In this document: positions 26,183-48,191 of the stretch, one piece after another
How positions within the stretch are numbered: the first letter of the stretch is position 1
Layout: the number at the start of each line of letters is the position of its first letter
From: Parvibaculum sedimenti
GTDB taxonomy: Bacteria > Pseudomonadota > Alphaproteobacteria > Parvibaculales > Parvibaculaceae
NCBI RefSeq assembly: GCF_009184905.1
Contig: NZ_WESC01000008.1
Span: forward strand, 62,001 to 126,000
Direction: 5' to 3'
Length of the DNA: 64,000 bases
Notes under the pieces: generated by a model
What the model was told of the DNA's origin: nothing
Database searches by the model: none
Seen by the model: only the letters and a program-made list of their open reading frames with translations
Program-made: the position numbers and the translations under genes

Positions 26183-26269
26183 CGTCATCGCCCGATTTAT
26201 TCGGGCCATCCACGTCTTTGCGATCAATGAAGGAAGGCGTGGATGCCCCGGACGAGCCGGAGCATGACG
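26183..26269. repeat. REPIN-like inverted repeat pair A
   Basis: An 87-bp element with two inverted arms. The left arm reads CGTCAT, a hairpin (CGCCCG with CGGGC), then CATCCACGTCTTT. The right arm, read on the minus strand, has CGTCATG, a CCGG-type hairpin, then GCATCCACGCCTTCC. It lies between the convergent mutY and ccrM stops. It shares the arm plan with elements at 48082-48191 and 28258-28622. Confidence 0.82.
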
Positions 26270-27488: not shown

Positions 27489-28184
27489 TCATTCCGGAAT
27501 CGCGGGACTCAACATGTTGCGTATGGGCGCGAAGCTTTTGCGGTGGTGCGGCGTCACTCCGAGCCGATTCAGTGCATCAAGATGCTCCGGCGTCCCGTAT
27601 CCGCGGTTGGTTTCCCAGCCGTAGCCGGGGTGTGCTGCTGCCAGTTCGTTCATGATCCGGTCGCGCGTCACCTTGGCGATGATGGAGGCCGCCGAGATCG
27701 ACAGGACGCGCGCGTCGCCGCCGATGATGGCGCGGGCAGGACAGTCGAGTTTCGGCACGCGGTTGCCGTCGATGAGCGCGAAGCCGGGCGGGTTTTCGAG
27801 CGCGGCGCAAGCGCGGCTCATCGCGAGCATGGTCGCCCAGAGAATATTGAGTTCCTCGATTTCATCGATGCTCGCGATGCCGACGCCGATTTCCGCGCGC
27901 GTTGAGAGTTCGGCGAAAAGCGCCTCGCGCTTTGCCTCGTCGAGCTTCTTGGAATCGTCAAGGCCCTCGGGGCAGTTCTCCATGTCGAGGATAACGGCCG
28001 CCGCGACCACCGGACCCGCCAACGGCCCTCGCCCCGCCTCGTCGATGCCGCAGACGCGGGCTTGCGGCGCGCCATGCTCCCGCTCGAAGGCATAGTCGGG
28101 CTTCAGCAGGATCATGCGCGACGCGGGCTTCACGCGCGCCTTCGGCTTCGTTGTTGTCGAATCTGTTTTCGGGGGACGAGTCAT
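27489..28184 (-). CDS. rnhB: Ribonuclease HII
   Basis: The 231-residue enzyme cuts RNA in RNA-DNA hybrids and removes single ribonucleotides. Catalytic residues appear in VCGIDEAGRGPLAGPVVAAAV (Asp-Glu pair), FALIDGNRVPKL and ISAASIIAKVTRDR, with the Asp in the last helix region. About 30 basic residues precede the domain. The start at 28184 (MTRPPKT) is tentative: an upstream in-frame start at 28220 and a downstream ATG (MILLKPDY) exist. It lies 97 bases upstream of ccrM. Confidence 0.94.
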   Translation of the reverse strand: MTRPPKTDSTTTKPKARVKPASRMILLKPDYAFEREHGAPQARVCGIDEAGRGPLAGPVVAAAVILDMENCPEGLDDSKKLDEAKREALFAELSTRAEIGVGIASIDEIEELNILWATMLAMSRACAALENPPGFALIDGNRVPKLDCPARAIIGGDARVLSISAASIIAKVTRDRIMNELAAAHPGYGWETNRGYGTPEHLDALNRLGVTPHHRKSFAPIRNMLSPAIPE

Positions 28185-28257
28185 GCGGCGGAGTTTGCCG
28201 CATAGGCAATGGCGTGTCATCTGACACTGTTTATCTTCTCGATATTTAAAACTGAAA

Positions 28258-28284
28258 TGTCATCCCGGCGAAAGCCGGGATCCA
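28258..28284 (+). repeat. Left 27-bp terminal arm of the GIY-YIG element
   Basis: TGTCAT, hairpin CCCGGC-GAAA-GCCGGG, ATCCA. It is the exact reverse complement of 28596-28622 and lies five bases beyond the nuclease stop codon. Confidence 0.95.
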
Positions 28285-28289
28285 CTCGC

Positions 28290-28577
28290 CTATCGGTTGA
28301 GCATAACAAAGAGATCGTCCCATTCGGGATTGGCGCTCTCGATCAATTGTATCTTCCACGCGCGCTTCCATTCCTTAATCGCCTTCTCTCGCCAGATAGC
28401 TTCCCCAACATCCTCGTGTTCCTCCGCATAGACGAGCATGTGTACGCGATATTTCTTCGTGAATTGCGATCCCGTGCCCGCGCGATGTTGGGCAATGCGG
28501 AGTGCGAGACTATTCGTTACGCCGACGTAAAGCGTTCCATTCTTGCGGCCGGCGAGGATGTAAACGTGGTAGCTCAT
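28290..28577 (-). CDS. GIY-YIG family endonuclease (YhbQ/UPF0213-like)
   Basis: The 95-residue protein is a single GIY-YIG domain: VYILAGRKNGTLYVGVTNSL holds the two signature strands (VYI and YVG), LALRIAQHRAG has the catalytic arginine, and the C-terminus is EKAIKEWKRAWKIQLIESANPEWDDL, with the metal-binding glutamate in the WREKAIKEW region likely. Such single-domain nucleases are common and poorly characterised. The ATG at 28577 (MSYHVYI) was chosen; the frame upstream only translates the repeat arm (CHPGESRDP). The gene nearly fills the space between the 27-bp repeats. Confidence 0.9.
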   Translation of the reverse strand: MSYHVYILAGRKNGTLYVGVTNSLALRIAQHRAGTGSQFTKKYRVHMLVYAEEHEDVGEAIWREKAIKEWKRAWKIQLIESANPEWDDLFVMLNR

Positions 28578-28595
28578 CGTTTGCGGGGCTGCCAA

Positions 28596-28622
28596 TGGAT
28601 CCCGGCTTTCGCCGGGATGACA
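28596..28622 (-). repeat. Right 27-bp terminal arm of the GIY-YIG element
   Basis: Perfect inverted copy of 28258-28284, 18 bases upstream of the nuclease start and ten bases from the stop of the radical-SAM gene. Confidence 0.95.
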
Positions 28623-48081: not shown

Positions 48082-48191
48082 CGTCATGCCCCGCCCTCCT
48101 TTGATCTAAAGGCGGGCGGGGCATCCACGTCTTTTTCTGACGGCAGTTCAGCAGAAAGACGTGGATGGCCCGGTCAAGCCGGGCCATGACG
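48082..48191. repeat. REPIN-like inverted repeat pair B
   Basis: A 110-bp element with two inverted arms. The left arm has CGTCAT, a GC-rich hairpin (GCCCCGCC with GGCGGGCGGGGC) and ATCCACGTCTTT (48123-48134). The right arm has the complement AAAGACGTGGAT (48155-48166), a GGCCCGG/CCGGGCC hairpin and ATGACG. The inner 12-bp segments are perfect complements. It lies between glyS and ppdK and shares the arm plan with the element at 26183-26269. Confidence 0.85.

Follow-up and report, generated by a model that had tools for sequence, protein, structure and literature searches.

A small GIY-YIG nuclease gene between matched inverted CGTC repeats in Parvibaculum sedimenti: a candidate compact mobile unit

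The 64,000-nucleotide stretch of the Parvibaculum sedimenti genome analyzed here (hereafter the window) carries at positions 28258–28622 a 365-bp unit in which a GIY-YIG nuclease gene is enclosed by two repetitive extragenic palindromes (REPs) in the order REP–gene–REP, an arrangement considered below as a candidate relative of REP doublets forming hairpins (REPINs). The unit is placed between the stop of a radical-SAM gene (28632) and rnhB, and both of these genes are intact. The original prediction had described this undisturbed placement together with perfect 27-bp inverted arms and a 288-bp gene, and all of these are present. Each arm spans 27 nt and reads TGTCATCCCGGC-GAAA-GCCGGGATCCA, the two forming perfect inverted repeats that score 27 in an inverted-arm test with a threshold of 14. 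Within the arm, a TGTC tag is followed by an 8-bp stem (ATCCCGGC) closed by a GAAA loop and by a CCA tail; the GAAA-loop hairpin proposed earlier stands, while its 6-bp stem is to be read as 8 bp. In a 2013 survey, CGTC-1 REPs are defined by a [CT]GTC tag, an 8-bp stem beginning with AT, a 4-nt loop, a CCA tail and head-to-head dimers, and are mostly alphaproteobacterial (Di Nocera et al. 2013, PMC3733652). P. sedimenti is itself an alphaproteobacterium and not one of the gammaproteobacteria for which the original prediction cited REPINs. The window arms carry the same tag, stem, loop and tail, the dimers recur as described below, and the dRS3 repeats of Neisseria belong to the same family (PMC3733652). 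The features of the unit and of two related pairs in the window are collected in Table 1.

Table 1. Coordinates of the REP–gene–REP unit and of the geneless REP pairs in the window
Feature	Position	Strand	Basis or remark
Left arm, CGTC-1 type REP	28258..28284	+	33.7 bits against REP model R1, which was built from 38 sequences including this arm
GIY-YIG gene, stand-alone, 95 aa plus stop	28290..28577	-	Pfam GIY-YIG, E 2.1e-15
Right arm, perfect inverted copy of the left arm	28596..28622	-	Direct reading; inverted-arm test
Geneless inverted REP pair (REPIN-like)	26183..26269 (arms 26183-26212 and 26240-26269)		CCACGTCTTT inner sequence on one side
Geneless inverted REP pair	48082..48191 (arms 48082-48127 and 48162-48191)		Inner ends CCACGTCTT/AAGACGTGG

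Matched inverted arms accompany this gene well beyond the window. The class sample comprised 142 genomes, mostly one per family and 49 of them with a GIY-YIG match; 100 of the 101 listed places were analyzed, namely 88 loci of the window subfamily (the four of P. sedimenti included) and 12 of other types. At a score of at least 14, with windows moved 400 bp outward as the shifted control, matched arms are detected at 44 of the 88 subfamily loci versus 0/84 shifted windows and 11/440 cross-locus pairs, and a score of 12 gives 54/88 versus 1/84 and 23/440, respectively. The genus set (27 genomes, of which 20 have the gene, at 62 places) yields arms at 45 of the 58 places outside the P. sedimenti genome versus 0/56 shifted, and these class and genus counts speak against the possibility, raised in the original prediction, that close homologues usually lack such arms. 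A scan of species genomes across phyla, taken as the best 80 loci, a few of them in genomes of the earlier sets, gives arms at 54 of the 77 with both flanks versus 1/67 shifted. CGTC-form arms are found in records whose titles name Alpha-, Beta- and Gammaproteobacteria (or genera thereof), Desulfobulbaceae, Nitrospirota, Dehalococcoidia, Planctomycetota, Uhrbacteria and Parcubacteria. Additionally, 33 records of a plasmid collection match, and among the 18 examined, some of them near relatives of each other, 15 score at least 14 and the far control never exceeds 9; two of these 15, L176 and L177, have other repeats. No phage record matched the nuclease search. An earlier strict hairpin scan, since replaced by the inverted-repeat test, gave a low yield because it demanded strict tags, finding both outward REPs at 14/88 class loci (each shifted control 0/88) and at least one REP within 200 bp at 38/88 (2/88 and 4/88 in the two controls).

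Among class arms scoring at least 16, the GTC end points outward at 21 of 38 loci and inward at 3, with whole dimers on both sides at 3 and 11 unclassified, and the corresponding genus counts are 36 of 42, 1, 0 and 5. The whole dimers imply that some copies lie between two REP pairs rather than inside one. A plasmid locus of this form (L167 1-2276, Azospirillum lipoferum 4B plasmid AZO_p3) has a whole REP pair on each side of its GIY-YIG gene, which separates sufB from sufC within the suf operon and is lacking in the three relatives examined.

Within the P. sedimenti genome itself (G000), the Pfam GIY-YIG search marks six places, four of which belong to the window subfamily: the window gene, L003, L004 and a copy with a frameshift (L006/L112). 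Each of the four is enclosed by matched inverted REPs of a subtype of its own, one arm of the frameshifted copy being decayed; the two remaining places, L002 and L005 (687-aa open frame), have no REP in the scan. Pairing of left with right is a property of the individual copy. Across 41 genomes with at least two copies, a copy's left arm matches its right arm in 78 of 124 cases, versus 43 of 352 for arms taken from different copies of the same genome, and within the genus left-right identity is 0.93 inside a unit versus 0.75 between units of one genome. Arm identity in the genus also rises with protein identity (rank r 0.40, reached in 0/2000 permutations; 43 of 61 units usable). These results bear on the simplest alternative, that intergenic REPs are so common that small genes are often flanked through chance or hitch-hiking. 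REPs are indeed abundant, with 75 matches in the P. sedimenti genome, but the shifted, cross-locus and same-genome controls reject chance framing, as do L002 and L005, which gave no REP in the scan, and the far closer match of arms within than between copies of one genome; this alternative is accordingly highly improbable, and by these controls the pairing of gene and arms is not due to chance.

Comparison of copies reveals that the unit occupies unrelated sites and has definite ends, a trait of transposable elements. Among genus gene pairs at least 80% identical, 38 of 63 have no common flank on either side, flanks below 200 bases at contig ends being excluded and scored as no match, and one locus (L262) offering one usable flank only. 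In genome G157, two copies 90.5% identical stand at unrelated places without flank homology and match only over the arm-to-arm stretch, which has the GTC of the first arm and the GAC of the second as its limits, give or take a base or two. The same GTC-to-GAC limits are observed between G149 and G157 and between G152 and G157. Despite a dS (synonymous divergence) of 1.36, the latter pair has identical left arms, and its right arms are distinguished only by two stem base pairs, each changed on both sides. Because homology between copies at unrelated sites stops at the arms, the unit, judged from its copies, has moved.

The window protein is modeled as a bare GIY-YIG domain (predicted local distance difference test score, pLDDT, 95.2) from a 33-row alignment in which Y6, Y17, R27, H31, E64 and N83 are invariant; we take these residues to fit the catalytic set of the GIY-YIG superfamily. 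A structure search returns a UPF0213 protein as the sole PDB match with E < 0.001, followed more weakly by the branched-DNA nuclease SLX1 (E ~0.09) and I-TevI (E ~0.4). The fold is common to the window protein and these GIY-YIG nucleases, whereas the window family has no extra DNA-binding domain and is distinguished by a conserved C-terminal NPxWxDL and by its association with REPs. The ratio of nonsynonymous to synonymous substitution rates (dN/dS) lies between 0.03 and 0.12 in 14 of 15 chosen gene pairs, orthologous and non-orthologous alike, the fifteenth pair being nearly identical; by this measure the nuclease gene is under strong purifying selection. A Neisseria gonorrhoeae record (L177) encodes a family member that shares 52% identity with the L003 protein, and dRS3 (CGTC-1) repeats of the form CGTCATTCCC...GGGAAT are densely clustered around it. 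Small GIY-YIG nucleases called Ssn reportedly cut single-stranded DNA site-specifically at the Neisseria NTS repeat (a study of 2025), and are reported to be stand-alone proteins linked to a multicopy repeat, with which the setting of L177 agrees. They probably belong to the same family as the window protein, in which case the nuclease as such may already be known.

Such an activity could also serve a resident factor of genome dynamics, namely an Ssn-like enzyme, inherited vertically, that would cleave single strands such as those of incoming or recombining DNA wherever they carry its own REPs, with the arms regulating or protecting the gene and mobility being incidental. Several copies orthologous across species with conserved flanks, the low dN/dS and the position of the Neisseria member among dRS3 repeats are all in keeping with this proposal. 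The unit has moved, however, as its presence at unrelated places with no homology beyond the arms shows, and frameshifted or internally deleted copies within arms resemble decaying mobile DNA, so that a purely resident role is considered quite improbable.

The two geneless elements that the original prediction had named in the window are both present as REP pairs (Table 1), and a REP pair also occurs in G159 at the place matching 26183-26269. The inner ends CCACGTCTT...AAGACGTGG of the pair at 48082-48191 are the same as those of the gene-bearing unit L003 in the same genome, and this common inner CCACGTCTT sequence supports the earlier proposal that the geneless pairs are non-autonomous relatives. 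The motif CATCCACGTCTT is found in 22 copies in the P. sedimenti genome versus 0 for the reversed control, with several close plus/minus pairs, one of which frames the L003 gene; the inverted head-to-head dimers of CGTC-1 REPs are accordingly represented by the two window pairs and by these further pairs. Across the genus the motif has a median of 35.5 copies in the 8 genomes with the matching gene clade versus 13 in the 19 without (p 0.0008, relatedness ignored), and a count test of the subtype-b repeat is weak (p 0.045). A putative route from gene-bearing to geneless forms is illustrated by Sinorhizobium meliloti Ak57 (L174, 1-2276), in which two tandem REP–gene–REP units stand between gltA and lpxB and the first gene is internally deleted; read from its sequence, this deleted unit is a step between the two forms. 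Separately, four tandem REP pairs spaced by ~150-200 bp adjoin a GIY-YIG gene in G037 (L020 879-1462).

Orthologous sites without the gene provide a further view of the unit. In G159, whose rnhB is 92% identical, the window site consists of one symmetric hairpin, TGTCATCCCGGC-GAAA-GCCGGGATGAC, without a gene, and one hairpin is also found there in G166 (imperfect) and G165. Among 24 genus genomes, the rnhB–radical-SAM junction holds the gene in 6, a hairpin only in 3, a geneless pair in 2 (G145 and G142) and neither in 4, with 9 unclassified; both matched arms are present in 4 of the 6 genomes with the gene, G144 and G146 being those without. At an ABC-F gene site, also surveyed in 24 genomes, the unit occurs in G000 and G165 and a single hairpin in G166, the others being none found or unclassified. 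Beyond the genus, the Sphingobium plasmids pTomTYG64a and pTomTYG74a (imperfect) carry a single hairpin where relatives carry the unit, TomTYG72 and TomTYG65 have no such hairpin at that site, and Sinorhizobium sp. K101 has a single hairpin (left tag CTC) opposite a filled site. A further hairpin, CATGCGGC...GCCGCAT, lies outside the unit at window 28180-28206 at the rnhB start; it lacks a CCA tail and is also present in G159.

A hairpin-only site may be the left hairpin joined to the right GAC tag after loss of the unit, or the target of a homing enzyme. The second possibility leads to a homing parasite, a nuclease gene that invades existing hairpins or REP pairs by cutting and repair copying, the REPs being targets that it neither created nor spread. 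The near-symmetric GTC-stem-loop-stem-GAC hairpins at the gene-free sites listed above and the geneless pairs of G145 and G142 at the window junction are what such a parasite would be expected to meet. Against it, the site that is filled in A. lipoferum lacks a hairpin in Azospirillum oryzae and A. ramasamyi, whose aligned flanks show ~95-96% identity and whose intergenic stretches there are REP-free but diverged, and an unrelated palindrome stands in another relative, B510; moreover, each copy has arms of its own rather than the common REP of the genome, and a single hairpin can also be the scar of unit loss. Homing is hence judged unlikely as the origin of the arrangement, though less so than the resident role.

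The distribution of CGTC REPs follows that of the gene to a considerable extent. In the class sample, REPs, counted among the best 51 candidates of the search, occur in 36 of 43 gene-bearing versus 19 of 99 other genomes (p 4e-13, uncorrected for tree or genome size), and a hand tally of genomes of ~2.3 Mb or more among G000-G031 gives 7 of 8 versus 2 of 9 (p 0.012). A Y1 (REP-associated tyrosine transposase, RAYT-type) gene was sought as the alternative mover: PF01797 matches occur in 32 of the 142 class genomes and none in the P. sedimenti genome, which is estimated to be 100% complete, and a RAYT was set aside for this genome because it has REPs without such a match.

On balance, the unit is probably a compact REPIN-like mobile element composed of a CGTC REP, a GIY-YIG nuclease gene in place of a RAYT and an inverted CGTC REP, with the geneless pairs served in trans. 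This reading draws on sequence comparison, specifically on the GTC...GAC bounds, the unrelated sites, arms that are alike within a unit and vary with the protein, and geneless pairs with the same inner ends. In the proposed mechanism, the nuclease would recognize the hairpins of the arms, in single-stranded or cruciform form, and cut beside them, whereupon host repair would copy, insert or remove the unit. GIY-YIG enzymes hydrolyse DNA and are not known to join strands, a point that weighs against a mobile element and for which host repair must therefore be invoked. The same nuclease would move or maintain geneless REP pairs in trans, as RAYTs are thought to do for REPINs, and at least some geneless pairs would be internal-deletion derivatives. 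Several further observations count against this interpretation. By the inverted-arm test half of the class loci (44/88) have no matched arms; seven gene-bearing class genomes have no REP match; six genomes without an intact strong gene copy have at least 10 REPs, and at least 40 in G081, G093 and G105; and seven genus genomes without a strong gene copy still have 8-76 REP matches. Furthermore, no movement, cleavage or target duplication was observed, the orthologous sites compared for target duplication being hairpin-only (window, Sphingobium, Sinorhizobium) or too diverged (Azospirillum).

Relative to REPIN-RAYT systems or REPtrons (GTAG REPs with TnpA-REP; PMC8266576), the unit shares inverted palindromic pairs, a small DNA-cutting gene between them, many geneless pairs and a repeat subtype per gene, whereas a GIY-YIG nuclease replaces the HUH tyrosine transposase and a CGTC-class TGTC tag replaces GTAG. 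The REPIN-type assignment of the original prediction thus holds for the framing of a gene by inverted REPs and for the occurrence of geneless pairs at other places, and fails for the GTAG tag and the RAYT gene. In the 2013 survey, CGTC REPs are described as apparently without a dedicated transposase and their mover is left open (PMC3733652), whereas the loci compared here repeatedly link a GIY-YIG gene to such repeats. The repeats belong to a known class, and the nuclease family is probably known as well. Among the matches listed in the open-licence literature, which lacks many journals, none links GIY-YIG genes to REPs, and none describes a mobile unit of this kind, definite in its ends, with matched arms and with geneless relatives in several phyla.

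Another small GIY-YIG subfamily, marked by a conserved RRPV and represented by 15 strong places (L194-L206, L212, L213), is framed by a different repeat. Inverted arms scoring at least 13 are present at 9 of the 15 places versus 0/14 shifted, and 8 of these 9 have arms of the CATCCTGAGC...GTCGAAGG type or close variants, a repeat also written as the CATCCTGAGCTTGTCGAAGG type, which suggests a separate enzyme–repeat pair. Of the 12 class places of other types, 6 score at least 14, with a different repeat, and no strict CGTC REP was found within 200 bp at any of the 12. Elsewhere, a member of the window family on the Planktothrix agardhii plasmid p1 (L179) adjoins a type IIL restriction enzyme and the DISARM gene drmA, with TGTCATTCTGAG repeats nearby.

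More broadly, and more tentatively, small GIY-YIG nucleases may be the missing movers of CGTC REPs, acting by hairpin cutting and host repair in place of a transposase, in which case the CGTC REPs of many phyla would be their geneless offspring and the second subfamily would serve a different repeat; we regard this extension as possible but still somewhat doubtful. CGTC REPs are widespread in bacteria, and a candidate enzyme adjoining them is named here in several phyla; each enzyme is given a matching repeat subtype, and the question of what moves CGTC REPs becomes directly testable. If the interpretation is true, the unit, at 365 bp, would rank with the smallest known mobile elements that are self-sufficient, and REPIN-like elements would have arisen at least twice, with unrelated nucleases.
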